44,869 bases of DNA. It comes from Elusimicrobiota bacterium (GTDB lineage Bacteria > Elusimicrobiota > UBA8919). A program made the position numbers and the translations under genes. The notes beneath the pieces were generated by a model that was not told the DNA's origin, ran no database searches, and saw nothing but the letters and a program-made list of their open reading frames with translations. Shown in pieces: positions 969 through 44,869 of the stretch; within the stretch, counting starts at the first letter, position 1, and every line of letters begins with the position of its first letter. The stretch spans positions 1 through 44,869 of the forward strand of contig JAQUMH010000014.1 of assembly GCA_028718185.1 (NCBI GenBank), given 5' to 3'.

Positions 969-3900
969 ATGAAAAAGTTATGGTTAGTATTACTATACAT
1001 AGTATATTATTGTTTTTTTGGTTTAGCATTATATGCGGGTCAGCTCAAACTTACGATTGATCATACAAATGTAGATACGTCCCTATCTAATTTTCCTATC
1101 TTGGTACATCTTGGAAGTGCTTCTGGAATCAACTCAGCTAATACTACTACAGTATTCACTGAACTCGTGAGTGATGTTAACAGAAAGAAGATTTCTGTAA
1201 CAACTGAAAGTGGAGTAGAACTCTATGTTGAAATAGAAAAATGGGATACAGCCAACAAGCAGGCATGGCTATGGGTCAAGGTTCCAAGCATATCCAATAC
1301 CGAGGATACCATTTTATATCTTAATTACGATAAGAACAGAACCGATAATACAGCGTCTGTTGGAGATACAGGTTCAGTCGCTGCAAAAGCCGTATGGGAT
1401 TCTAGATTTCAAACCGTATTACATTTTGCAGAACAAGGTTCGGGTAGTACTGGAGAATATAAAGATTCTACAATGAAATTAAATGGAACAGCAAATACTA
1501 AATACTATAATTCTAATGATTATGGTCCAATAACATATGGGCCCCCAACGATGGTCACGAATAGTGGATTAATCGGGAATGCTCAATTTTTTGATGGTGT
1601 TAATGATTTAATTAGTGTTCCAGACGCTGATGGTTTGTCATGGAACCCGACAAAGGCAATAACGGTTTCATGGTGGTTTGTTCCAACGGTACTTACATGG
1701 ACAAAAGATAGTCAATCCAGCGAACATTATATAAATATGATGGGGAAAGCAGATTATGGTGATTACCCCACGGGTGATATGATTGGCTGGGAATGGGAGT
1801 TTGGACTAGGTAGTAAATATTCCGGTTCAGAAAAAAATCAGGAGATAACACATTATGTCCATCATCCTGCAGGAGGAGGAGGTGCGGGAGCCGGTAATTA
1901 TCCAGATGGCGGTGTTCATTATGGGTATATAGAAGATGGGTCAATTAGTGGGCCGGCGTATAATGTAGGAGATAAAATCCTAGTCGTTGGAAGAATGGAT
2001 GCCACTAATATATGGGTGGATACCTATTATCATAATGGCTATCATTTACAAGACGGCTCAGCTAACTTTGGAAATTCATCAGATTGTACTCCCGACACAG
2101 ATTGTACCCCTGCAAACACAGCATCAAATTTTAATATCGGAACAATGCCAACGCAAGGACAAATGTTTGAAGGAATAATGGATGAAGTTCGCGTTTCAAA
2201 TGTATTTCGGTCAGATGCATGGTTGAAAAGTAGTTACTATTCAGAAAGCGATAAATTATTAACATATACCGTAACTTCTACGCCATCCGACACAACACAA
2301 CCATTAGCGATAACTACATTGTCGACAGGTATTGCAACCAGTAACAGTGTAGTATTAAGTTGGACATCAGTGGGAGATGATGGAAATATTGGAACAGCAA
2401 CAACGTATGATATCCGGTATGCGACATTTAGCATAACAACTAACAATTGGAATAGCGTAACACAATGCAATACTGAACCGACCCCATTAGTAGCCGGAAA
2501 TAATCAAACTTACACTGTAAATGGATTAAATGCAAACACACAATATTATTTTGCAATGAAAGCAGCAGATGAAGCACCTAACTGGTCAGGAATATCTAAT
2601 GTAATAAGTAAAGCAACAACTTCTATAAGAATAATGCCACTTGGAGATTCAATAACACATCAGGCATATAGTTATCGAGTTCTTTTATGGACAAAACTAC
2701 ATGATGCCGGCTGGGATTTCGATTTTGTCGGTAGCACCCAGGTTGCCGGCGATCAGTGCGTCGATATAAATCAGGAAGGGTGGGGTGGATACAGAATTGA
2801 TACCAGTTCTAAATATCTTGATTCATGGATAACAAAGAATCCGTCCGATATTGTTTTATTGCATCTTGGAACTAATGATATCAACCAAAATTATCTGCTA
2901 CTTGATACAACAAATAGGCTTAGCACTCTTATCGACAAAATAACAACAAGATTACCCGATGCAAAAGTCTACGTGGCATCAATTATTCCATGCAAGGATA
3001 ATCCGGCAACCACCACACGTAATGAGGCTGCACAAACGGTTGCATATAACAACGGAATTCCCGGTGTTATATCAGCGAAACAAAGTCAGGGCAAAAAAGT
3101 TTATTTTGTAGATATCTATAACGAAGCCCATATTAGCACGACCACTGATTTTGCTTCTTACGAACTTCTCCATCCCAATTCTTTAGGCGCCGATAAAATG
3201 GCTAACGTCTGGTATAATCATCTTACAGGCATTACACCAAATAATCCGCCAATAGCGAGTGACCAAAGTGTTAATATATTCAAAGACACAACTAAACAAA
3301 TAACATTGACTGCGACCGATGCAGATAATAATTCTTTGATATATAGCACAGTCACCACGCCTGGTCATGGAACGTTGTCCGGTACAGTACCGAACGTAAC
3401 TTATACACCAGCCAGTGGATACACTGGAGCAGATAGTTTTACTTTTAAAGTAAATGATGGTGAGTCTGACAGTAATGTAGCAACAATATCTATAATAGTA
3501 AGTGAACTCCCAACACAGCAGGCGTATCCTGCAGGAGTAGCATGGGTGGTAGGAACAGGGACAACAACAATACAGTCAGAAGATTACGATATGCTAACAA
3601 CTGGTATAGGTGAGGGTGAGGCATATCATGATACAACAACCGGCAATAGTGGTGGTGGAGTATACAGAACAACAGAGAATGTAGATGTACAGGTATGCAC
3701 AGATACTGTTGTTGGGTACAATATAGGTTGGACAAAACCTGGTGAGTGGTTGGAATATAGTATAAATGTAAATCAAGGTGGCGAATACAAAATAATACTG
3801 AGGGGAGCCAATGGACTAACAACTAATGGTGGTCCTATACACCTTGAATTTGGCACTCACAAGGAATCAGCATATATTAAAACATCATCAGTAAGCATCC

Positions 3901-6443
3901 CGCCAACAGGTAGTTATGGTACATGGGCAGATGTAACACTATCAACAGGAATAACACTTACTGCAGGCAACCAGATAATGAAGTTAGTTATGGAAACTAG
4001 TGCAGCAGCCGGCTGTGGTAATTTTAACTACATTAAATTAATAAAAGTAACTGCAGACACACCAAATACAGTAGAAACACCTACAATAAGCCCCGGTGCA
4101 GGAACATATGCAGATTCTATCACAATAACCTTAGGTTGTGCAACCAGCGGGGCAGAGATAAGATATACTACAAATGGAACAGACCCGACATCATCGTCAA
4201 CATTATATTCTTCATCGTTTACGCTAACGACAAGTGCAACGGTTCGAGTACGTGCATTCAAAGACACTATGACCGACAGTTCTGTAAACAGCGTGGCATA
4301 TGTGATAACAATTGTCTCATCGCAGCAGTCATATGGTAACTCTGGAAATCCATGGCAGATAGGAACTGAAACAACAACTATACAGATAGAGAATTATGAT
4401 ACAGTAACAAGCGGTTCTGCATCCGGTGAGACATACAATGATACAACAACAGGCAATAGTGGTGGTGCATACAGGACAACCGAGAATGTAGATATTGGTG
4501 TATGTACTGATACTGATGGTGGATATTATATTGGATGGACTGCTCCAAATGAATGGTTGGAATACAGTGTAAATGTGAATCAAGGTGGCGAATACAAAAT
4601 AATACTAAGAGCAGCCAATGGATTGTCAAGTGCAAGTCCGGTACATCTTGAATTCGGTACGCACAAGGAAGCACCATATATTAAAACATCATCAGTAACC
4701 ATACCGTCAACAGGTGGATGGGATAAATGGGCAAATATAGAAGTCTCATCCAATGTGTCACTTACGCAAGGCAATCAGATAATGAAGTTAGTCATGGAAA
4801 CCGGTAGCGTATCCGGTAACGGCAATTTTAACCACATTAAATTAGTAAAACTAACTGCTGATACAACACCACCAACAATAAGTGTAGTAACACCAACGAA
4901 CATAACAGACACTGGAGCAGTGATAACATGGACAACAAATGAACCTTCGAACAGTAAGGTAGAGTATGGATTAACTGCAAGTTATGGAAGTGTAACTCCG
5001 GCAACAGATACCGCCGGTATATACAACCACAACGTTACACTAAGTGGTCTTGCTGAGAATACAGTCTATCATTACAGAATGGTATCCGTAGATATGAATA
5101 GCAACACAACAACGACCGGTGATTATATTTTTACAACAATTGCAAAAGATTCCAATCCACCTGTAATAAGTAATGTCCGGGCAAGTGTAACACAAAACAA
5201 TGCAGTAATAACATGGACAACCGATGAGAACTCCGATTCTCAGGTGGCATATGGAACTTCAACGGCACTTGGGTCTATAGCAACTTTAGATTCTACACTA
5301 ATAAGGTTGCATAGTGTTTCTATTAGCGGATTACAGAAAGCTAAAACCTATTATTACAAGGTCTACAGTCGTGATGCAGTTGGTAACATTGCAGAGTCAA
5401 CACAATATAGTTTCAAGACATCTAATATTAAATACAGAATATACACATATTACTATGATGATTTAAAAACTAATGCGGATTTGAAATTTAAAGTGCAAGT
5501 ATATAATGATGATAATAACGTAGCAACAGATTATGCAGGAACAGTAACTCTTAAAACCATAAACAGCAAAAGTAGTTTACTGGATAAAGTTGATGCAACT
5601 TTAATTGAGTCAGATTCGGGGGAAAAAGAGATTTCGGTCCCGCTTCGCAGTAATATAGATATGGTAGAACTAAGTGGCGATACAACAGCACCGATACTGA
5701 TAAATTTCAGTGATATGTATATAGCAAAGTTTGTAGGTTACCAGGGTGGTTCAATACGAGGTGCTAACGGGTTAAAGATACTTATACCCACAGGAGTTCT
5801 GCCCGCAAACAAGTTTCTTGCCGCTATTAAGACAAGTGCATCACCGGCAGTCCGGAATACAATGAAATATGTTAACACTATTAATCCGATATGTTATGAT
5901 TTTGGTGAGTTAACATTCAACAATAATGCACCGGTCCTGCAAAATCAGTTATTCACAAGAGCAGTAAACATAACATTACCTTATGCAAAAACTGATATTG
6001 GGACATTAAACGAAGATGGACTTAGAATCTATTACTGGACCGGAACAGATTGGGAATTAGTAGAAGGTGTGCAGATAATAGATAAAATAAACAAAACGTT
6101 AACTGCAACAGTCAAACATTTCTCAACATACCGTATATTGGGTAGTTATATTTCTGCTGATATGAGCAATATAAAAATTTACCCTAACCCATATAACCCG
6201 GATACAGCAGTTCAAGGTAAATTGAAGATAATCAATTTACCAATTAACAGCGTTATGAAGTTGTATAGTGTATCTGGAAGGTTAGCCAGGGAATTGAAAG
6301 AGGTCGATTTTGGTAATCTTGGCTGGCTCGAGTGGGATGGCAAGAATGACGATGGCGACAAAGTAGGCAGAGGAATGTATATTTACCAAATAGAAGATGG
6401 TGCCGGTAACAAGAAAACAGGAAAAATAGGACTAGTAAAATAG
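969..6443 (+). CDS. Giant modular secreted protein: DUF2341, LamG, SGNH hydrolase, two CBM6, FlgD-like tail
   Basis: This 1824-residue protein starts at ATG 969, with GGAGA six bases upstream and a signal peptide at 1-24. Domains in order: DUF2341-like (about 25-130); LamG/concanavalin-like (about 190-430); fibronectin III (about 445-545); SGNH/GDSL hydrolase (about 553-755); cadherin-like/Big_9 (about 760-845); CBM6 (about 850-1027); chitobiase-C-like (about 1036-1114); a second CBM6 (about 1118-1297); two fibronectin III domains like those N-terminal to purple acid phosphatases (about 1298-1485); a beta-rich region; and an FlgD-like tail (about 1726-1824). SGNH motifs seen are GDS with Ser561, GWGG, and GTND at 634-637. 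The usual DxxH near the end reads ExxH (Glu732, His735). The family suggests deacetylation or de-esterification of polysaccharide outside the cell; substrate unknown. The two CBM6 modules are close copies. Confidence 0.9.
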   Translation: MKKLWLVLLYIVYYCFFGLALYAGQLKLTIDHTNVDTSLSNFPILVHLGSASGINSANTTTVFTELVSDVNRKKISVTTESGVELYVEIEKWDTANKQAWLWVKVPSISNTEDTILYLNYDKNRTDNTASVGDTGSVAAKAVWDSRFQTVLHFAEQGSGSTGEYKDSTMKLNGTANTKYYNSNDYGPITYGPPTMVTNSGLIGNAQFFDGVNDLISVPDADGLSWNPTKAITVSWWFVPTVLTWTKDSQSSEHYINMMGKADYGDYPTGDMIGWEWEFGLGSKYSGSEKNQEITHYVHHPAGGGGAGAGNYPDGGVHYGYIEDGSISGPAYNVGDKILVVGRMDATNIWVDTYYHNGYHLQDGSANFGNSSDCTPDTDCTPANTASNFNIGTMPTQGQMFEGIMDEVRVSNVFRSDAWLKSSYYSESDKLLTYTVTSTPSDTTQPLAITTLSTGIATSNSVVLSWTSVGDDGNIGTATTYDIRYATFSITTNNWNSVTQCNTEPTPLVAGNNQTYTVNGLNANTQYYFAMKAADEAPNWSGISNVISKATTSIRIMPLGDSITHQAYSYRVLLWTKLHDAGWDFDFVGSTQVAGDQCVDINQEGWGGYRIDTSSKYLDSWITKNPSDIVLLHLGTNDINQNYLLLDTTNRLSTLIDKITTRLPDAKVYVASIIPCKDNPATTTRNEAAQTVAYNNGIPGVISAKQSQGKKVYFVDIYNEAHISTTTDFASYELLHPNSLGADKMANVWYNHLTGITPNNPPIASDQSVNIFKDTTKQITLTATDADNNSLIYSTVTTPGHGTLSGTVPNVTYTPASGYTGADSFTFKVNDGESDSNVATISIIVSELPTQQAYPAGVAWVVGTGTTTIQSEDYDMLTTGIGEGEAYHDTTTGNSGGGVYRTTENVDVQVCTDTVVGYNIGWTKPGEWLEYSINVNQGGEYKIILRGANGLTTNGGPIHLEFGTHKESAYIKTSSVSIPPTGSYGTWADVTLSTGITLTAGNQIMKLVMETSAAAGCGNFNYIKLIKVTADTPNTVETPTISPGAGTYADSITITLGCATSGAEIRYTTNGTDPTSSSTLYSSSFTLTTSATVRVRAFKDTMTDSSVNSVAYVITIVSSQQSYGNSGNPWQIGTETTTIQIENYDTVTSGSASGETYNDTTTGNSGGAYRTTENVDIGVCTDTDGGYYIGWTAPNEWLEYSVNVNQGGEYKIILRAANGLSSASPVHLEFGTHKEAPYIKTSSVTIPSTGGWDKWANIEVSSNVSLTQGNQIMKLVMETGSVSGNGNFNHIKLVKLTADTTPPTISVVTPTNITDTGAVITWTTNEPSNSKVEYGLTASYGSVTPATDTAGIYNHNVTLSGLAENTVYHYRMVSVDMNSNTTTTGDYIFTTIAKDSNPPVISNVRASVTQNNAVITWTTDENSDSQVAYGTSTALGSIATLDSTLIRLHSVSISGLQKAKTYYYKVYSRDAVGNIAESTQYSFKTSNIKYRIYTYYYDDLKTNADLKFKVQVYNDDNNVATDYAGTVTLKTINSKSSLLDKVDATLIESDSGEKEISVPLRSNIDMVELSGDTTAPILINFSDMYIAKFVGYQGGSIRGANGLKILIPTGVLPANKFLAAIKTSASPAVRNTMKYVNTINPICYDFGELTFNNNAPVLQNQLFTRAVNITLPYAKTDIGTLNEDGLRIYYWTGTDWELVEGVQIIDKINKTLTATVKHFSTYRILGSYISADMSNIKIYPNPYNPDTAVQGKLKIINLPINSVMKLYSVSGRLARELKEVDFGNLGWLEWDGKNDDGDKVGRGMYIYQIEDGAGNKKTGKIGLVK

Positions 6444-19131: not shown

Positions 19132-19159
19132 TTGACAAAAAGATAACATGTTGTATAAT
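19132..19159 (+). promoter_or_regulatory. Strong predicted promoter for the kelch/PorV-CsgG operon
   Basis: A perfect TTGACA (19132-19137), 16-nt spacer, and perfect TATAAT (19154-19159). The leader of about 30 nt contains GGAGG seven bases before the ATG at 19197. Confidence 0.8.
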
Positions 19160-19196: not shown

Positions 19197-20726
19197 ATGA
19201 TAAGAAGTAAATTGATAGATAAATTGTTATTTTCTTTATTTTCTTTAATTGTTGCTCTTTCTATTTTTTCTAATAATGCAGATGCTATAACCGGAACGAT
19301 TTCAGGAACAATTCTCAGGCATGATAACAATGCAGGTATACCGGGGAATGACATAATCGTTGTATATAATGGAACAGCTGAAATAACCCGCGGGGGTAGT
19401 GATGGTTCCGGAGTTTATTCAATAATGGTGAATGAAGGGGTTTATGACTTGCACATTGGTCATGCAAATTACCTTTCTCAAACCGCAATTGGCGTAACGG
19501 TTACCGCAAATCAAGCTACACCATTAAATATTTCACTTTACAATGACAATTCTTTATTAGATTTTTCCTGGGAACAAAGAGTAACAACTATTTCTCCGGC
19601 AAGAGTTGGATTAGTTGCTGCAACAGTAAATAATAAAATCTATATTATCGGCGGTAACAATAACAGCGGTACCTTTCAAAGTGTAGAGGAATATGATCCT
19701 TCATCCGGCAATATAGTCACAAGACCAAGTCTTCCTCAGCCAAGAGATTGGGCAGCGGTCGCAGTAGTAAACAATAAAATATATGTAATCGGCGGTGGTG
19801 GCGGTGGTTATTACAATACTGTGTATGAATATAATATTGCTGGAAATACATGGACAGTAAGAGCACCTATGCCTACTTCAAGGAATAGATGCTCAGCAGC
19901 AGTTGTGGATAATAAAATATACGTAATCGGAGGTACAAACGCTAGTAATTTTATTCCTCTGAATAGTGTAGAAGAATATGATCCTCAAACAAATGCATGG
20001 ATAACAAAATCTTCAATGGGTGTAGCAAGGTATGGTGCTGCACTCGCTGTTTTAAACAATGAAATATATGCAATTGGTGGTGGTGGTATTAATGGTAATG
20101 CTGAACAGGTTAGTACCACTATGGTTGAAAGATATAACCCGTCAACTAATGTATGGGCAAGAGCTGAGGCTGTATTTACTGCAAGACGTGAACATTCTGC
20201 CTTTGTGCTAAATAACAAGATATATGTAGTAGGTGAATCCGCTTCTGTAGAGGAATTCGATTCTTCAACAGGACACTGGACAACAAAAACAAATGTAAAT
20301 CCTGCATTTCAAAAAAGCGGTTTTGGTGTAGGAGTAGTAAAAAATGAAGTATATTTAATCGGAGGATTTGGAACAAACAGTTATCAGTCAGGTATTGTAA
20401 AAGGTTCTCTTCAGGAAAGAGGTTTAATAGGTCCGAGTGGCAATACCAATTTGATAAATAGTGCATATTGCTATCCGGTTCCGGCAAATCTGACAAGAGG
20501 TGATACTATAAAATTTGTTAATTTAACAGGAAGTGCTAAGGTAAAGATATTGACAACTTCCGGAGTTACAGTAAAAGATCTTTTAGCCGATAGCAACGGT
20601 TCCCTTGCTCCCTGGGATGGAAAGGATAATAACGGTAACAAAATTGCAACCGGAACATACATCGTTCATGCTTCAGATGATTCCAATAGTAAACCAAAAA
20701 TATTCAAAATAATAATTATTAAGTAA
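19197..20726 (+). CDS. Secreted kelch-repeat propeller with FlgD-like tail
   Basis: The 509-residue protein has a signal peptide (about 1-30, ending near NADA), a carboxypeptidase-regulatory-like domain (about 32-118; GTISGTILRHDNNAGIPG), and six kelch blades (about 140-405). Each blade contains N[NK][KE][IV]Y.[IV]G followed by VEEYDP or similar and a Trp about ten residues on. An FlgD-like tail follows (about 420-509; CYPVPANLTRGDTIKF, VKILTTSGVTVKDL, PWDGKDNNGNKIATGTYI). Kelch propellers bind proteins or glycans. The tail is of the class used for sorting or anchoring, and a PorV-like barrel gene starts 14 bases downstream. That pairing suggests the propeller is cargo or partner of the barrel (inferred). 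It has its own strong promoter. Confidence 0.9.
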   Translation: MIRSKLIDKLLFSLFSLIVALSIFSNNADAITGTISGTILRHDNNAGIPGNDIIVVYNGTAEITRGGSDGSGVYSIMVNEGVYDLHIGHANYLSQTAIGVTVTANQATPLNISLYNDNSLLDFSWEQRVTTISPARVGLVAATVNNKIYIIGGNNNSGTFQSVEEYDPSSGNIVTRPSLPQPRDWAAVAVVNNKIYVIGGGGGGYYNTVYEYNIAGNTWTVRAPMPTSRNRCSAAVVDNKIYVIGGTNASNFIPLNSVEEYDPQTNAWITKSSMGVARYGAALAVLNNEIYAIGGGGINGNAEQVSTTMVERYNPSTNVWARAEAVFTARREHSAFVLNNKIYVVGESASVEEFDSSTGHWTTKTNVNPAFQKSGFGVGVVKNEVYLIGGFGTNSYQSGIVKGSLQERGLIGPSGNTNLINSAYCYPVPANLTRGDTIKFVNLTGSAKVKILTTSGVTVKDLLADSNGSLAPWDGKDNNGNKIATGTYIVHASDDSNSKPKIFKIIIIK

Positions 20727-20740
20727 TTAAGGGGGAATTA

Positions 20741-22156
20741 ATGAAATTATCAAGACATTGTTTTATTTCCATGGCAGTCTTTTTAATAGTTTTCAATTTG
20801 CTTAACAATTCTAATCTTCTCGCTGCTGCCGGTGATATTCCTACCGCACAGTTTTTAATGGTTGGACAAGGACCGCGGGCTGAATCGCTTGGCGGGGCGG
20901 TAGTCGCTAACTGTTTTGATTATACTTCAGCTTACTGGAATCCTGCTGCATCTGCTTTTTTAAAAAATCCGGAAGTCGGGTTCGTTTTTACCAGACTTCC
21001 TGCTGAAATAACCAATTCATTTATATCCGGTTTTTACCCGCATAAAAAATATAGTTTAGGTTTCAGAGTAATCCAGCAACAAACTAAAGTGGATATTTAT
21101 ACTTCCAGTGGACGAACTGGAGCGACAATATCCGATACAAGTAATAATTTTAATATATTAGCCGGTTACAGGCTTTTTGAAAAATTTGCTTTTGGTATTG
21201 GTACTGGTGCTACTAATTTAAAAATAGATAATCTAGTATGTGGATTCTTCAATGCGAATGTAGGTCTTATGTATAAAGGTGATAGATTAGGTATAGGACT
21301 TTCTGCTTCTAATATTGGAAACAGGAAAGCCTATAAGGGCGGGGTTGTAACTTCTACAGAACTCGAATCACAACCTCAGATAGTCAGGGCAGGCTTGGCA
21401 TATACTCTGCTTGAAGATAAATCTTTAACATTTTTAGCATCAATAGAAAAAGTTACAGAAACTGATTGGGGACAGATATTAGGTTTAGGAACCGAATTTA
21501 ATATCTTTAAAAAAACTCTTGCTTTAAGGACGGGATTCAAGAATAGTTTAGGTGGTACTAAGGACACTGCATTCCCGGTTTGGACCGGTGGTATCGGAAT
21601 AAAATATAAAGCACTCGGAATAGATACCAGTTATTCAGTGCCGATTCAAAATGTAAAAGGTATAGAAGTTCTGCGGTTAGCTTTATCGTGTAAATTTGGA
21701 AAAATTGAAGGTGAAACTTCTACGACAAAAGTAAGGTTAGCAAAACCCGAAAGAAAACCTGGTGAGATTATCAACATTGCTGTAGCAGATTTTGGGGGAA
21801 AGAATGTCTCCCAAGCGGACGGCTCAATCGTTGCGGATTTCTTAAGAACCGAACTGGTTAATACCGGTGTATATAATGTTGTAGAAAAAGCTAACATGGA
21901 TAAGATATTAGCCGAAGCGGCATTTCAACAGTCGGGTTGTACTACTTCAGAGTGTGCGGTTCAAATCGGAAAAATGTTAAATGTAAAACAGATGATAGTC
22001 GGCAGCTTGTCAAAACTCATGGATACTTATTACATAACAGTAAATTTAGTTGAAGTTGAAACAGGGAAAATTGTTGCATCGTACGACCAGGAAGCCATGT
22101 CCGCAAAAGAACTGAAAACTGCATGCAACACATTAGCGCAAAAACTTGCAGAATAA
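20741..22156 (+). CDS. PorV/PorQ-type outer-membrane barrel fused to a CsgG-like domain
   Basis: The product is 471 residues with GGGGG before the ATG and a signal peptide at about 1-30. Residues about 31-325 match the PorV/PorQ family: QFLMVGQGPRAESLGGA, SAYWNPAA, then repeated alternating beta-strands (FRVIQQQTKVDIY, GLMYKGDRLGIGLSA, GGIGIKYKALGIDTSYSVP). PorV shuttles tail-bearing cargo in type IX secretion. After a short linker, about 343-471 form a CsgG/LpoB-like alpha/beta domain (INIAVADFGGKNVS, VVEKANMDKILAEAAFQQSG, IGKMLNVKQMIVGSLSKL), as in curli secretion and surface-organelle assembly proteins. CsgG itself forms a pore through a barrel of its own; here the domain is attached to a different barrel. 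Probably co-transcribed with the kelch gene upstream. Confidence 0.85.
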   Translation: MKLSRHCFISMAVFLIVFNLLNNSNLLAAAGDIPTAQFLMVGQGPRAESLGGAVVANCFDYTSAYWNPAASAFLKNPEVGFVFTRLPAEITNSFISGFYPHKKYSLGFRVIQQQTKVDIYTSSGRTGATISDTSNNFNILAGYRLFEKFAFGIGTGATNLKIDNLVCGFFNANVGLMYKGDRLGIGLSASNIGNRKAYKGGVVTSTELESQPQIVRAGLAYTLLEDKSLTFLASIEKVTETDWGQILGLGTEFNIFKKTLALRTGFKNSLGGTKDTAFPVWTGGIGIKYKALGIDTSYSVPIQNVKGIEVLRLALSCKFGKIEGETSTTKVRLAKPERKPGEIINIAVADFGGKNVSQADGSIVADFLRTELVNTGVYNVVEKANMDKILAEAAFQQSGCTTSECAVQIGKMLNVKQMIVGSLSKLMDTYYITVNLVEVETGKIVASYDQEAMSAKELKTACNTLAQKLAE

Positions 22157-22183: not shown

Positions 22184-23587
22184 ATGAAAAAATATATTTG
22201 CCTTTTTGTTTTGTGTTTTTTATTTACTAGTATTACATCAGCAAGACCTGTTATTGGAGACAAGGCATCGGGATTTATTTTATCAGATTTAAATGACAGT
22301 AAAAATTCACTCAATACCATTCTTTTAAGCGATAAACCTGTGATTATTTCTTTTTTTGCTACCTGGTGTCAGCCTTGCTTGAAAGAAATACCGCACCTGC
22401 AAAATCTTCAAAAAAAAACCGATGCTACAATATATCTTATAAACATTGACAACTTAAGTAAAGAAAAGATAGCAGAATTTGTAAAAAACAATAATATAAC
22501 GCTTCCTATTATGTTGGACCCTGATGCAAAAATTACAGGAGAAAATTACGGTGTCCTAAAAGCAGGGAAAGCAAGCATTCCGAAACTTATTATGCTTTCT
22601 TCCAGTGGCATTGTAAAATACATTAAAGACGGTTATGATGAAAATATTGAAACAATATTGGAAGAAAAAATACTTGCTGTTGAAAAAGAAAGTCTCAATA
22701 GACCGAAAGAACTTGCAATATTCTTTACTAACTCACTTAACGGTCAGGTTGAATCTTGTGACTGTCCGCGTAATCCATTTGGCGGACTTTCAAGAAGGGC
22801 AACTTTACTTAAACAACAACGGGCGAAATATCCCAACAATTTGCTTTTAGATTCAGGTGATTTGTTTTCCTATTATCCTTCTTCTAATTCTGTTGCCGGT
22901 ATTTTAAAGATTTATGAGATATTAAATTATGACGCTGTTGGCATTGGAGACATAGAATTCTCGTATGCCGATTTTATAAAAACCATCGACAAGTATAAAG
23001 TCCCGTTTCTTGCTTCAAATATAAATTATTGTGAAGGAGATATTTGCAGGTTTATTACACCTCACGATAAGATAATTGAAAAACAAAACTTAAAAATTAA
23101 AATAATATCAATTATTTATCCGGATATATTTGGTCTCTACCCGGAAACTATTCTTAAAAATCTAAAGATTTTAACAGTAGATGATGTTCTAACTCAGGAT
23201 AAAAAGGACTGTGACCTTTTAATTTTAATTTCTCACGCAGGATATGACGTTGACAGAACGCTTGCGGAAAAGTTCAGAAATATTGATGTAATTATTGGCG
23301 GGCATTCACAGACTCTTTTAGGAAACCCTACTAAAATCGGCAACACGTTGATTGTTCAAGCTGGAGATAATGGTAAATATGTGGGGAAACTTTTATTAAA
23401 ATTTGATGAATCAAAAAAAATCATATCCTTTGAAAATGAACTCACACCACTTACTAAAGAAATTCCTGATGATAGTGAAGTGAAAAATTTAATTGCTGAA
23501 TATCATTTATCGCATAAAAATACCGCAGCCGGTGCAGTCGGTGCAATTGACACACCCACTGGCGGTCCTCATAGAATAGGACGCTAA
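22184..23587 (+). CDS. Exported thioredoxin (TlpA-like) fused to a UshA-like metallophosphatase
   Basis: The 467-residue protein has GGGGG before the ATG and a signal peptide (1-20). Residues about 22-165 are a TlpA/AhpC-type thioredoxin with active site W-C-Q-P-C at 61-65 and the cis-Pro loop near KASIPKL. Residues about 174-440 resemble the UshA/5'-nucleotidase metallophosphatase fold (FGGLSRRATLLKQQR, LLLDSGDLF, ISHAGYDVD, VIIGGHSQTLL, QAGDNGKYVGKL). Several metal ligands differ from the nucleotidases: the first D-x-H reads S-L-N and is followed by a C-D-C motif, and GNHE reads GDIE. It may therefore not be an ordinary nucleotidase. The stop codon is directly followed by the ATG of the next gene, also a thiol-redox protein, so they form an operon. 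Confidence 0.82.
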   Translation: MKKYICLFVLCFLFTSITSARPVIGDKASGFILSDLNDSKNSLNTILLSDKPVIISFFATWCQPCLKEIPHLQNLQKKTDATIYLINIDNLSKEKIAEFVKNNNITLPIMLDPDAKITGENYGVLKAGKASIPKLIMLSSSGIVKYIKDGYDENIETILEEKILAVEKESLNRPKELAIFFTNSLNGQVESCDCPRNPFGGLSRRATLLKQQRAKYPNNLLLDSGDLFSYYPSSNSVAGILKIYEILNYDAVGIGDIEFSYADFIKTIDKYKVPFLASNINYCEGDICRFITPHDKIIEKQNLKIKIISIIYPDIFGLYPETILKNLKILTVDDVLTQDKKDCDLLILISHAGYDVDRTLAEKFRNIDVIIGGHSQTLLGNPTKIGNTLIVQAGDNGKYVGKLLLKFDESKKIISFENELTPLTKEIPDDSEVKNLIAEYHLSHKNTAAGAVGAIDTPTGGPHRIGR

Positions 23588-25177
23588 ATGATAAAAAAAG
23601 TCTTTTATTTATTCTCCTTCACCAAATACCCCGTCAAGTTTCACTTGACGGGAATAAAGAAAAGGAGAACCCCCACGTCTAGTTTTGTCTACGACAAAAC
23701 TGTGCGAGGTGGCAATTTGATACCCCGCAGCTTGCTGTGGGGAGCTTTATTCTTTCCTTTTTTCTTTCTAACCTTTTCATATTGTCAAGCCATTGAAATT
23801 GATAAAAATATTATTGATTTAGGTTCTTTCAAAGAAGGGATTATAATAGAACAAACGCTTAACATAAAAAATACATCAAAAAATATTTTAAACATTGGTG
23901 TTCGCCCTTCTTGTAATTGTATAACTGTTACTCCTGAAAAATACAACCTTAAACAAAATCAAAATATTAATATTAAAGTTAAAGTTAATACTGCAGGATA
24001 TACAAGTAACATAAATGAAAAAATATTTATTCAGTCAAATGATTCTAAAAATCCATACATCTCAATTGATGTTAAGGGTAAATTAGTATCCAACAAAAAC
24101 CTGACAATTCCAATTACAATATTTGACTCCGTTGGTTGTCTTTTTTGCATTGAATTAGAAAAAAATACCATACCTTTATATGAAAAAAAATATAATGTAA
24201 AAATAGAACTTACCAAATATCCTGTTAGCGACCCCAAAAACTATTCTTCACTTGTTCTTCTTGAAAAAAAGATGGGTAAGACATTAAATAAAATTCCTGT
24301 ACTTTTCATCGGCAATGATATAATAGGCGGGAAAGAAGAAATTAAAAAGAATTTATCCTTTTTAATAGAAAAATATATAAAGCTTGGCGGGGCGAAGAAA
24401 ATAGACATTCCTTCAGGTGAAGTTAAAAAAAGTGATGTCACCTCAAAATTAAGTTTACTTCCTATCGTATCTGCAGGTTTAATTGACAGCGTAAATCCCT
24501 GCGCATTTGCTACAATCATATTTCTTATTACATATTTGAACATGGTTTTAAAAAAGCAAAAATACGAAATATTATTAACAGGAATGTCTTTTGTTGTCGG
24601 TGTATTTGTAACCTATTTTTTAATTGGCTTAGGGTTACTAAAATTCCTCCAGCAAATCAATCAAATTTTAATAATCTCAAAAATAATGTATTTATTAATC
24701 GGAGTACTTGTACTCTTCGTTTCTTTTCAGCATTTAAGGGAAGCAATAGCAATAAAGAAAGGTACTAACATATATGATAATACCATAAAACTAAAACTTC
24801 CCAATAAATTACGTTGGATAATTTATACTGTAATTACAAAATTAGCTGCATTGAAATATTTAATACCGATTGCATTTTTAATAGGTGCTGCCATTACTAT
24901 TTTAGAATTGTTTTGCACCGGTCAGATATATTTGCCCACAATAATGTATATTATAAAACTTCCTAATTACCACACACAAGGTATCCTCTATTTATTACTA
25001 TACTGTTTATTGTTCGTATTGCCTCTAATAATCATATTTTTCTTATTCTATTATGGTTTAGATATTGACTTACTTGAAGCAGCTTTTAGAAAGAAGATAT
25101 TTTTAATAAAAATACTTATGTCTGCCTTCTTCCTAACCCTTGGAATAATAATTTTCATAATAACATTTTTTACTTGA
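23588..25177 (+). CDS. DUF1573, thioredoxin-like and CcdA/DsbD-like membrane electron carrier fusion
   Basis: From ATG 23588 the product is 529 residues. After the signal region, about 78-160 form a DUF1573 Ig-like domain (LGSFKEGIIIEQTLNIKNTS, RPSCNCITV). About 172-270 form a thioredoxin/glutaredoxin-like domain with C-L-F-C. About 295-529 form six or so membrane helices of the CcdA/DsbD type, with conserved NPCAF and ELFCTGQIYLPT, whose paired Cys pass electrons across the inner membrane. The likely role is to feed reductant to the exported thioredoxin encoded upstream. The N-terminus is odd: three hairpin repeats encode about residues 12-53, splitting MIKKVFYLFSF from a second hydrophobic run (LFFPFFFLTFSYCQA). 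A TTG at 23717 (residue 44), preceded by AGGTGG, is a plausible alternative start giving 486 residues. Confidence 0.82.
   Translation: MIKKVFYLFSFTKYPVKFHLTGIKKRRTPTSSFVYDKTVRGGNLIPRSLLWGALFFPFFFLTFSYCQAIEIDKNIIDLGSFKEGIIIEQTLNIKNTSKNILNIGVRPSCNCITVTPEKYNLKQNQNINIKVKVNTAGYTSNINEKIFIQSNDSKNPYISIDVKGKLVSNKNLTIPITIFDSVGCLFCIELEKNTIPLYEKKYNVKIELTKYPVSDPKNYSSLVLLEKKMGKTLNKIPVLFIGNDIIGGKEEIKKNLSFLIEKYIKLGGAKKIDIPSGEVKKSDVTSKLSLLPIVSAGLIDSVNPCAFATIIFLITYLNMVLKKQKYEILLTGMSFVVGVFVTYFLIGLGLLKFLQQINQILIISKIMYLLIGVLVLFVSFQHLREAIAIKKGTNIYDNTIKLKLPNKLRWIIYTVITKLAALKYLIPIAFLIGAAITILELFCTGQIYLPTIMYIIKLPNYHTQGILYLLLYCLLFVLPLIIIFFLFYYGLDIDLLEAAFRKKIFLIKILMSAFFLTLGIIIFIITFFT
23612..23742. repeat. Composite of three hairpin repeats inside coding sequence
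   Basis: TTCTCCTT (23612-23619) and AAGGAGAA (23662-23669) enclose CCCGTCAAGT-TTC-ACTTGACGGG (23630-23652). Next come AGTTTTGTC-TAC-GACAAAACT (23681-23701) and CCCCGCAGC-TT-GCTGTGGGG (23723-23742, one mismatch). The last shares the AGC-TT-GCT core of the intergenic repeats at 6.5-10.4 kb. All three lie in the signal-peptide region of the DUF1573-CcdA gene. Confidence 0.8.
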
Positions 25178-25822: not shown

Positions 25823-26377
25823 ATGAAAAAAATAATGTTGACAACGATAACAGTAATGCTGATTAGTATATGGCAAGTATGTTTAGCAAGTTCTATTGGA
25901 ACGATAAATCCTGTGTTGTTATGGGAAAAAAAATTGCCCTTTAAAATTGATGATATCAAAATGGCAAAGGGAAGCGGAGATATTATTTTTGTTTCTAACA
26001 GTCAAATAATACTTTATGATAAAAATGGTTACAAAAGATTTCAATGGGGACCTAGGGTAGATAGGGCACCAAGTGGAGTAGATATATCTGATAATGGAAG
26101 TATAATTATTTATCAAACTAATTGGACAGAGGATTATATTTGGGAAAAAGGAATAGATTTGCAAAAATCAGGTTGGGATATTAAAATACATTATGCTACC
26201 AGAAAAGGAAAAGAACTCTGGAATAAAAAAATGGTGGGAGCAGGGTATTTGTCTCCTGATGGAAGTATGGTAGCAGTTGGTCCTTCTGGTGGAGAGGGAA
26301 GCAACTTAACTCTTTTAGATTCCAATGGAAAACAAATTTGGGAATACATTTATGAAATTGGGGGGGGGCTAATATAG
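25823..26377 (+). CDS. N-terminal half of an exported beta-propeller protein, cut by a frameshift at poly-G
   Basis: The 184 residues begin with a signal peptide (about 1-23, ending LAS) after AAGGAG. Propeller-like blades follow, with repeats of D.KMA.GSGDIIFVS, YDKNG, VDISDNGSIIIY and LSPDGSMVAVG: the WD40/PQQ-like pattern of a hydrophobic strand, S-x-DG turn, then a strand. The frame ends at TAG 26375-26377, just after nine G (26360-26368). With one more G (or two fewer) the sequence would continue as GANIAFSPDSSF, D-G-G turns and on into the next reading frame without a stop, giving a protein of about 377 residues. I did not recognise a specific function. Confidence 0.8.
   Translation: MKKIMLTTITVMLISIWQVCLASSIGTINPVLLWEKKLPFKIDDIKMAKGSGDIIFVSNSQIILYDKNGYKRFQWGPRVDRAPSGVDISDNGSIIIYQTNWTEDYIWEKGIDLQKSGWDIKIHYATRKGKELWNKKMVGAGYLSPDGSMVAVGPSGGEGSNLTLLDSNGKQIWEYIYEIGGGLI
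26360..26368 (+). repeat. Nine-G homopolymer causing a frameshift
   Basis: (G)9 inside the propeller gene. Ten or seven G would join the upstream and downstream frames. Tracts like this change length by strand slippage (phase variation) and are also common sequencing errors. Confidence 0.85.
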
Positions 26378-26421: not shown

Positions 26422-26955
26422 GTGGGTGGTGATTTACGATTATTTAATAGATATGGTAATCTTATGTTTGAAAAAACACAATGTGATGGAATTGTATCAC
26501 TTTCTGAAGATGGTAATTATATTTCAACTTATCCTCATGAAGATGTAATACATCCTGAATTTTCTCATCATGGAAAAGTTTATGATAAGAATGGAAATGT
26601 AGTTATAGAAGGTTTTGGTTCAGTATCAGCAGACGGAAAAAGATTCGCTCTTTTACTTGATACTACAACCATTATTTATTCTCTGCCAGATAAGATAGTA
26701 ATAAAAGAATATCCTATTCAGGGGACAGATGTAGTATTATCTTCTGATGGAAGATTTATAGTGGTGGTGGGAACAAAGACAGATACTGCGTCTACTAATA
26801 ATATCATTGTTATTGATTCGCAAGAAGATAGAATTTGGGAGACATATGCATCATATACGAATACATCTCCACATATTTTTCTAACGAAAGATGGCAAGTA
26901 TTTATTGGTTATTAGTTATCAAGAAAATAAACTTTTTTACTATAACCTCTACTAA
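26422..26955 (+). CDS. C-terminal half of the frameshifted beta-propeller protein
   Basis: The reading frame is open from the poly-G tract (in-frame codons from 26368) to TAA 26953-26955; the first formal start is GTG 26422. Residues continue the same propeller pattern (LFNRYGNLMFE, VSLSEDGNYIS, GSVSADGKRFALL, VVLSSDGRFIVVV, FLTKDGKYLLVIS), about four blades. No ribosome site is near the GTG and there is no signal peptide, so on its own this piece would not be exported or well translated. It is best read as the second half of the gene starting at 25823. Confidence 0.78.
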   Translation: MGGDLRLFNRYGNLMFEKTQCDGIVSLSEDGNYISTYPHEDVIHPEFSHHGKVYDKNGNVVIEGFGSVSADGKRFALLLDTTTIIYSLPDKIVIKEYPIQGTDVVLSSDGRFIVVVGTKTDTASTNNIIVIDSQEDRIWETYASYTNTSPHIFLTKDGKYLLVISYQENKLFYYNLY

Positions 26956-43571: not shown

Positions 43572-44869
43572 ATGAAAAACATGAGGTTTATGATAAAAAG
43601 TTTAAGAACGCATAAGAAGTGTTTTGTGTTAGCCTTAGCAATTTTATTGGGTTTTGCTAATTTTAGTTTATTAACAGCTATTGTAACACCGCAACCTAAC
43701 AGCGATTCAACATTCCAGAATGCTACTTTGATATACAAATCCAGAGAATATACCTGTTCTCCTGAACATGCTGATGGTGATTTCCTTGCTGCAGATCTTT
43801 TAACGAGCGACTGGCCTGTTGCGTGGGCAGATATCTCACAATACGTTACAGCAGCTCATAAGGCACAAGGTTTTATAGATATTCTGCTTACAGTAGACAT
43901 GACGCCTAAAGTGAATGGCGTTGATCCAAAAGTATATGTCACCGGAGATATAGATAATTATACTGACCAAGATTGGCTGGCTTCTGCAGATGGTGATTTA
44001 TATGATATGATAGATACAGATCTTGATGGTAATACCAACATTTGGGACAGTTATATACTTGAATGGAAGGTAGCTGATCCTATATATGGTACCGTTACTT
44101 ACAATTACATGCCGAACGATTATTATATATCGTTAAGATTCGCAGTACCAAAGGAAGTAAACAATTACTATAAGTTATTCTTAGGCCGAACCAACATAAG
44201 ACCATATGAGTCATATATCTCTTTTTCTGATTTTTACCAGGTGGACTTATACACTCCTGCGCTACCTGCGGGACCATATGCTTGTCCTGATATTAAGGTC
44301 TCCGAAAGATATAGAAGCCCGTATGATCCTGTTTATCAAGTATACCATACGCCTATGAAAAGTCGTTCTGTAATTGTAAATAAGTCTGTTACTTTTGATG
44401 GTTCAAGGTCACTGGACACTTCGGGTGCTACGATAACCAAGTATGAATGGGATTTTGATGGCGATGGAATATATGATGCTGAAGGAATTTCACCAACATA
44501 CACTTATACTGCGGTTGGTCTCTATACAGTTATCCTTAAAGTAACTAATAGTAATAACCAGATATCAATATCTAAGGGCAGTATTAGAAAATCAGAATCT
44601 TCTGACCCATTACCATTAGTCGTAAATGTAGTTGCCGCAGCACCTGAAAACAAACTTTACCAAAACGGTCCAAATCCGTTTATACCCGCAAAAGGTGATG
44701 TTAAAACGACCATTAATTATGATTTAACAACTGACAATCTTCCTGTTTCATTGAAAGTTTATACAGTTTCCGGTGAATTAATAAAAACGTTGGTAGATGA
44801 ACCTAAGCCTGCCGGGACATGGTCAACTGAATGGGATGGGACGAATGAGAGCGGCGAGAAGGTAGCGAG
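43572..44869 (+). CDS. Secreted PKD-domain protein with FlgD-like tail (3' partial)
   Basis: The frame opens at ATG 43572, after AGAGGT, and runs without a stop for 432 codons to the right edge. A long signal peptide (about 1-36; FVLAILLGFANF-like hydrophobic run, ending LLTA) is followed by an unrecognised beta-rich region with many Asp, Asn and Tyr (about 37-255; DTDLDGNTNIWD, YYISLRFAVP). A PKD domain (about 262-340; VTFDGSRSLDTSG, YEWDFDGDG, YTYTAVGLYTV) follows. An FlgD-like tail begins near 360 (YQNGPNPFIPAKGDV, LKVYTVSGELIKTLVDE, WDGTNESGEKV) and is cut by the window end. It is the fourth protein here with this tail type. Its position downstream of the permeases suggests a surface role in the same glycan uptake, but it may be a separate unit. 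Confidence 0.85.
   Translation, partial: MKNMRFMIKSLRTHKKCFVLALAILLGFANFSLLTAIVTPQPNSDSTFQNATLIYKSREYTCSPEHADGDFLAADLLTSDWPVAWADISQYVTAAHKAQGFIDILLTVDMTPKVNGVDPKVYVTGDIDNYTDQDWLASADGDLYDMIDTDLDGNTNIWDSYILEWKVADPIYGTVTYNYMPNDYYISLRFAVPKEVNNYYKLFLGRTNIRPYESYISFSDFYQVDLYTPALPAGPYACPDIKVSERYRSPYDPVYQVYHTPMKSRSVIVNKSVTFDGSRSLDTSGATITKYEWDFDGDGIYDAEGISPTYTYTAVGLYTVILKVTNSNNQISISKGSIRKSESSDPLPLVVNVVAAAPENKLYQNGPNPFIPAKGDVKTTINYDLTTDNLPVSLKVYTVSGELIKTLVDEPKPAGTWSTEWDGTNESGEKVA

Follow-up and report, generated by a model that had tools for sequence, protein, structure and literature searches.

A tailed kelch protein and a PorV-type barrel with a CsgG-like domain form a probable type IX-like cargo-carrier cassette in Elusimicrobiota

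Results

The gene pair and its surroundings

The window, by which we mean the whole stretch of 44,869 nucleotides that was analysed, is contig C14 of a 3.03-Mb Elusimicrobiota genome assembled in 27 contigs, and the named sequences that match it best are Elusimicrobia MAGs. At its centre of interest lie two genes on the forward strand, ORF1 and ORF2 (Table 1). An earlier note on this DNA had described them as two genes 14 bp apart behind a shared consensus promoter, and both statements are correct: 14 bases separate the stop of ORF1 from the start of ORF2, and a TTGACA-16-TATAAT sequence that agrees with the consensus at every position precedes the pair. Since a consensus scan of the region scored 8 promoter-like sites versus 14.1 in shuffled sequences, only this perfect match is notable.

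Table 1 Features of the gene pair in the window, with positions counted from the first letter of the window
Feature	Position	Strand	Basis
Promoter, sigma-70-type (TTGACA-16 nt-TATAAT, 12/12)	19132..19159	+	consensus match only
ORF1, 509 aa, secreted cargo: N-terminal signal-like stretch, CarboxypepD_reg, kelch propeller, tail	19197..20726	+	ORF and domain profiles
ORF1 kelch propeller, six Kelch_1 stretches	19569..20396 (approximate limits)	+	Pfam
ORF1 C-terminal T9SS type A-like sorting tail	20445..20723	+	NCBIfam PorZ, tail profile, AF2, structure matches
ORF2, 471 aa, PorV-type outer-membrane barrel and CsgG-like domain	20741..22156	+	profiles, AF2, Foldseek
ORF2 PorV/PorQ-family barrel, 14 strands in model	20843..21697	+	NCBIfam, AF2, Foldseek
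ORF2 CsgG/LpoB/TolB-N-like alpha/beta domain, predicted periplasmic, invariant Cys400 and Cys405	21770..22150	+	Pfam, AF2, alignment

Several other features of the window were recorded. Directly downstream of the pair, positions 22184-23587 encode a TlpA-like thioredoxin domain fused to a UshA-like phosphoesterase, and a similar reading frame follows the pair at a second locus of the phylum, L019. At 23588-25177, DUF1573 is fused to a glutaredoxin-like part and to a region that spans the membrane several times, and this frame, too, has a similar counterpart in L019. The frames at 25823-26377 and 26422-26955 look as if a single gene for a secreted propeller had been broken in two at a G run around 26360, which could be a slip of the assembly or a tract that can switch. 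Two more tailed reading frames, one of them of 1824 aa, occupy 3-845 and 969-6443, where no barrel is adjacent. At the far end, the contig stops inside a tailed gene (43572-44867) that appears to be the same as the one in which another contig stops (L013:7510-8760); as both frames end in the same last residues, the contigs probably break in a repeated cargo gene.

The passenger protein and its tail

The N-terminus of ORF1 is hydrophobic and signal-like as read from the sequence, and is followed by a CarboxypepD_reg domain at residues 34-114 and by six Kelch_1 stretches (168.9 bits, Pfam). The protein had been described as a secreted six-blade kelch propeller with an FlgD-like tail, which our profiles bear out for propeller and tail, with Pfam FlgD_ig matching residues 446-496 at 24.9 bits, below its 27-bit cut-off. 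The NCBIfam PorZ model matches the tail at residues 417-509 and our own tail profile, A1, matches it at nucleotides 20466-20723. When a profile of 16 tails was compared with the PDB, it retrieved FlgD, PorZ, PorU and translocon-bound C-terminal domains (CTDs), among others. The AF2 model of the tail, calculated from an alignment of 52 tails, reached a pLDDT of 91.8; in Foldseek the CTD of PorZ ranks first (1.2e-6), and in VIA-align the model scored Z 12.8 against PorZ (rmsd 2.5, 95 aligned), 10.6 against PorU and 9.0 against the translocon-bound CTD of NucA. The last value is by itself not decisive, because unrelated complement C5 rows reach Z scores of up to 9.7 against the same model, and a family's absence from these matches does not speak against it.

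The consensus of the tails reads YPNPFNP...IKIY...G...WDGKN..G..V..GxY...KI.V.K, and 45 of the 52 carry a lysine as the sixth residue from the C-terminus. This position may correspond to the near-invariant and functionally important lysine that type A CTDs have near their C-terminus according to a passage of PMC10994853. By profile and predicted fold the tail of ORF1 is a sorting domain of the type IX secretion system (T9SS), type A-like in character, which bears out its earlier interpretation as cargo signal of this system.

The barrel

ORF2 also begins with a signal-like stretch. NCBIfam PorV_fam (NF033709) matches its residues 35-319 with 90.8 bits at a cut-off of 90, while the equivalog model of PorV proper (NF033710) stays with 42.2 bits under its cut-off of 250. 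Pfam PorP_SprF likewise remains under its cut-off (19.5 versus 22.3 bits), which other barrels of the same genome pass, for example the one at L076 with 46.0 bits. Compared with the PDB, a profile of eight PorV-CsgG fusions found solved PorV (6h3i_F, 1.4e-21). The AF2 model of ORF2, based on a 30-row alignment and with a mean pLDDT of 85.4, has N-terminal helices followed by 14 strands (residues 78-318), from which a linker of low confidence leads to an alpha/beta domain (residues 344-470). Foldseek ranked PorV structures first and second (8gl6_F and 6h3i_F), with FadL structures after them. Solved PorV is therefore the best match by both sequence and structure, ahead of FadL and UPF0164, the porin families with which the earlier note had considered that the barrel might cluster instead.

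The C-terminal domain of the barrel protein

The addition of a CsgG-like domain to the barrel, as the earlier note had read it, was also recovered: Pfam CsgG matches residues 354-425 with 38.1 bits against a cut-off of 20.8, covering only positions 30-100 of the 210 in the model. LpoB exceeds its 22.3-bit cut-off as well, with 25.7 bits in ORF2 and 34.0 bits in L011, and because the models of CsgG, LpoB, FlgO and TolB_N overlap on this domain, we assign no single function to it. The pore of CsgG is formed by membrane beta-hairpins. In the AF2 model of ORF2, residues 344-470 form an alpha/beta core only, with none of these hairpins.

Cys400 and Cys405 are present in all 30 fusions aligned. A role as a link to a track, comparable to that between SprF and GldK treated in a portion of PMC12635249, was rejected for these cysteines, as they occur equally in L010, where a PorV barrel is lacking, and in L020; for the same reason they are probably a trait of the domain. 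L010 (9669-11111) carries the domain with its twin cysteines behind an NHL propeller, and in L020 (529-1761) the domain is preceded by an fn3-like N-terminal part and followed by a C-terminal stretch that, as read from the sequence, resembles a small barrel.

The topology of PorV places a C-terminal addition on the periplasmic side of the outer membrane. Sister barrels of ORF2 end in OmpA (L012), LysM (L075, L077) or TPR domains, and OmpA and LysM domains bind peptidoglycan in known proteins. From the topology of PorV and the ends of the sister barrels we infer that the CsgG-like domain would be periplasmic.

Pairing of barrels and tails within the genome

PorV_fam matches the genome 53 times (44 matches over the cut-off, two of the 53 within one reading frame) and the tail profile 87 times. 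A tailed reading frame adjoins 41 of the 53 PorV-family matches on the same strand within 500 bp, with the starts of the frames taken stop to stop in this count, whereas 2000 random placements on the same contigs averaged 3.1 and never exceeded 10. No tailed neighbour was found on the opposite strand. The barrel comes after the tailed gene in 24 cases, before it in 19 and both in 2. Because an adjacent tailed frame is missing for 12 of the 53 barrels and many of the 87 tails are without an adjacent barrel, tails may also use shared carriers.

For 28 cassettes of this genome, the distances among tails correlate with those among barrels (Mantel r 0.60; none of 5000 permutations as high), a result also to be expected if cassettes had been duplicated as units. 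The nearest tail and the nearest barrel belong together in 7 of 28 cassettes, compared with a permuted mean of 1.0 and a highest value of 8 in 1000 permutations.

Pairing across the phylum and exchange of modules

At E <= 1e-75, PorV-CsgG fusions were found in at least 19 of 340 Elusimicrobiota genomes and at least 15 of 100 genera, with at least 34 matches; these counts are lower bounds because four candidates were scored per genome. An open reading frame with the tail ends at most 443 bp upstream of the fusion at 28 of 30 loci, the exceptions being L040 and L045. Four of these 28 tailed genes had also supplied rows of the tail profile, and leaving them out gives 24 of 26. Two further fusion loci, with which 32 of the 34 matches are covered, have the tail upstream in one case (L086) and none in the other (L087), and in a separate MAG from Hainich the tail profile matches three of four upstream frames at E <= 1e-3. 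Among the 28 upstream frames, FlgD_ig is present in 26 and Por_Secre_tail in 6.

The co-occurrence of the fusion with tailed kelch genes, which the earlier note had put forward as a check, thus holds for the tail and not for the propeller: kelch is found in 3 of the 28 upstream frames, most of which lose their N-terminal part at the limit of the 1.5-kb flank. As NHL, RCC1 and unassigned passengers also occupy loci of the window type, we rejected kelch as the constant partner. At the four loci whose barrel proteins are 46-53% identical to ORF2, the tails are 41-56% identical, and the passengers are an NHL protein (L019), an RCC1 protein (L096), a kelch protein (L095) and an unassigned protein with CARDB (L094). 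With L095 as the only exception, no similarity to the passenger of the window is detectable in them.

In a tree of 57 barrels, the fusion state needs seven label changes, of which at least three are forced, and a single origin of the fusion was rejected, with one change in 0% of bootstrap trees; the deep branches of this tree are weak and its non-fusion rows come from the genome of the window only. Across these sequence comparisons, tail and barrel persist, and both the passenger and the inner C-terminal domain vary.

SprA and other type IX components

The search for SprA, the outer-membrane translocon of type IX secretion, revealed a homologue. TIGR04189, the SprA model, gives weak but colinear matches in an open frame of 1733 aa on contig C12. 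Seven of seven SprA frames from Elusimicrobiota match it, below its equivalog cut-off (119.8 of 200 bits). A match is present in 292 of the 340 genomes, in none of them over the cut-off, and the 19 genomes that carry the fusion all belong to this group. A profile of the seven frames retrieved SprA only from the PDB (2.4e-30). No SprA domain of Pfam was detected in the SprA frame, and phmmer with the single frame gave no match in the PDB. We regard these frames as distant homologues of the SprA translocon.

On C12 and in three related genomes (L083-L085), a FadL-like barrel, a tailed gene and a PorV-CsgG fusion stand in this order, followed by a pair of LptF/G-like genes that run on the opposite strand and then by SprA, the last being broken by unknown bases in L084. 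LptF/LptG-like genes, so named from a reading of their sequences, adjoin SprA in L009, L083-L085 and L092. In L092 (7138-9311) they do so in another family of the phylum, and a link between the translocon and lipopolysaccharide export is possible from this neighbourhood.

GldM was detected neither in this genome nor in any of the 340, GldL not in this genome and GldN in none of the 340; since no positive control was available for GldN and none passed the cut-off for GldM and GldL, these results do not show absence. The same holds for PorU: among the 51 of 83 candidates that were given a score, model NF033707 matched only by its tail region, again without a positive control. The C25 domain PF01364 had no match, and its controls gave none either.

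Discussion

The computed domain make-up of both proteins, the folds of tail and barrel, their pairing within and across genomes, the distant SprA and the presence of one PorV-CsgG type in the SprA locus lead us to propose that the pair is probably a single cargo-carrier cassette of a type IX-like system, in which the tailed kelch protein is kept on the cell surface by its own barrel and the CsgG-like foot of this barrel docks in the periplasm. The kelch protein would be exported by Sec, its type A-like tail would be recognised by the SprA-type translocon in the outer membrane, and the cargo would be handed over to its own PorV-like barrel next door, which would bind the tail and might hold the protein at the surface permanently. 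The CsgG-like domain, on the periplasmic side, could dock to the cell wall or a partner in the periplasm.

Much of this scheme has counterparts in Bacteroidota. With the type A and PorV branch of the T9SS it shares the type A-like tail, the 14-stranded PorV-type barrel and a SprA homologue. Unlike the single shared PorV of Bacteroidota, many barrels are present here, most of them paired with a tailed frame and some extended by C-terminal domains, and GldL, GldM, GldN and PorU were not found, a comparison that had no positive control. Sections of PMC9143113 and PMC12618676 describe the type B cargo of F. johnsoniae, for which dedicated PorP/SprF carriers are encoded next door and are proposed as surface anchors; they also present PorE, with TPR and peptidoglycan-binding domains, as the proposed tie between PorP and the wall. 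Judged by these sections, type B systems (SprB-SprF; PG1035-PorP-PorE) have in common with the loci studied here the carrier gene directly downstream of the cargo gene (28 of 30 fusion loci, 24 of 53 PorV-family matches), the proposed anchoring by the carrier, and a periplasmic element of the PorE kind, with TPR or peptidoglycan-binding domains. They differ in that here the tail is type A-like, the barrel PorV-like and the periplasmic domain fused to the barrel, whereas PorE is a separate protein. The alpha/beta domain itself is shared by profile with CsgG, LpoB, FlgO and TolB-N; here it stands behind a complete barrel and lacks the hairpins of CsgG. The earlier note had seen in the pair an export or attachment module distinct from either standard system. 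That is right in part: the pair appears to be a variant of the cargo-carrier scheme of the T9SS, and not a third kind of export.

Carried further, the cassette model would give a type IX-like system of Elusimicrobiota without the Gld motor. Every cargo would be served by a PorV-like carrier of its own, whose periplasmic foot (CsgG/LpoB-like, TPR, OmpA or LysM) would grip the wall or a wall synthase and in this way extract the loaded carrier from SprA by pulling or trapping it. Such an anchor would stand in for the motor step as well as for the sortase, and the modules at either end of the cassette would be freely interchangeable. We offer this extension as speculation that is unlikely to hold.

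Other explanations have to be weighed. The barrel might act as an ordinary PorV-type shuttle that takes the cargo over from SprA for a short time only, until it is released or attached to lipopolysaccharide, with the CsgG-like domain aiding folding or oligomerisation of the barrel. The resemblance to PorV and type A CTDs and the LptF/LptG-like genes beside SprA would fit such a shuttle; however, the dozens of barrels that each belong to a particular cassette, in place of a common PorV, the missing C25/PorU match (obtained without a positive control) and the peptidoglycan binders among the C-terminal domains make it rather unlikely. Coupling to wall growth, in which the LpoB-like domain stimulates or recruits a peptidoglycan synthase beneath each displayed cargo, draws on the LpoB scores and on OmpA or LysM at sister barrels, but the overlap of LpoB with three other models on this domain counts against it, and we give this coupling only a small chance. 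Propellers often bind ligands, and together with the FadL structures that come after PorV in Foldseek this would suit a FadL-like uptake channel whose ligand is captured by the propeller protein; such a porin is improbable, as PorV outranks FadL, the tail has a T9SS sorting fold and unrelated propeller families are swapped while the tail is kept. Lastly, the idea that the CsgG-like domain is a curli-type pore exporting the kelch protein, for which the Pfam match above the cut-off speaks, was abandoned as very improbable in view of the partial match, the hairpin-free model and the occurrence of the domain on NHL and fn3-like proteins (L010, L020), both without a PorV barrel.

According to the part of PMC12618676 that deals with distribution, the T9SS is confined to Bacteroidota, and an excerpt of PMC11285876 allows for its presence in further phyla of the FCB group and none elsewhere. 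Among the open-licence PMC papers listed in our searches, no description of a T9SS in Elusimicrobiota or of a PorV-CsgG fusion was found. Finding SprA in Elusimicrobiota, together with sorting tails and PorV-type carriers, would push the origin or the spread of the T9SS well beyond Bacteroidota and the FCB group. A lineage in which translocon, cargo and carriers are found while the motor goes undetected would offer a test of which type IX parts are essential, and the fused periplasmic feet suggest how the carriers of Bacteroidota are held, with PorE as the case in point. With propellers swapped on a fixed tail, the cassettes resemble a natural display platform.
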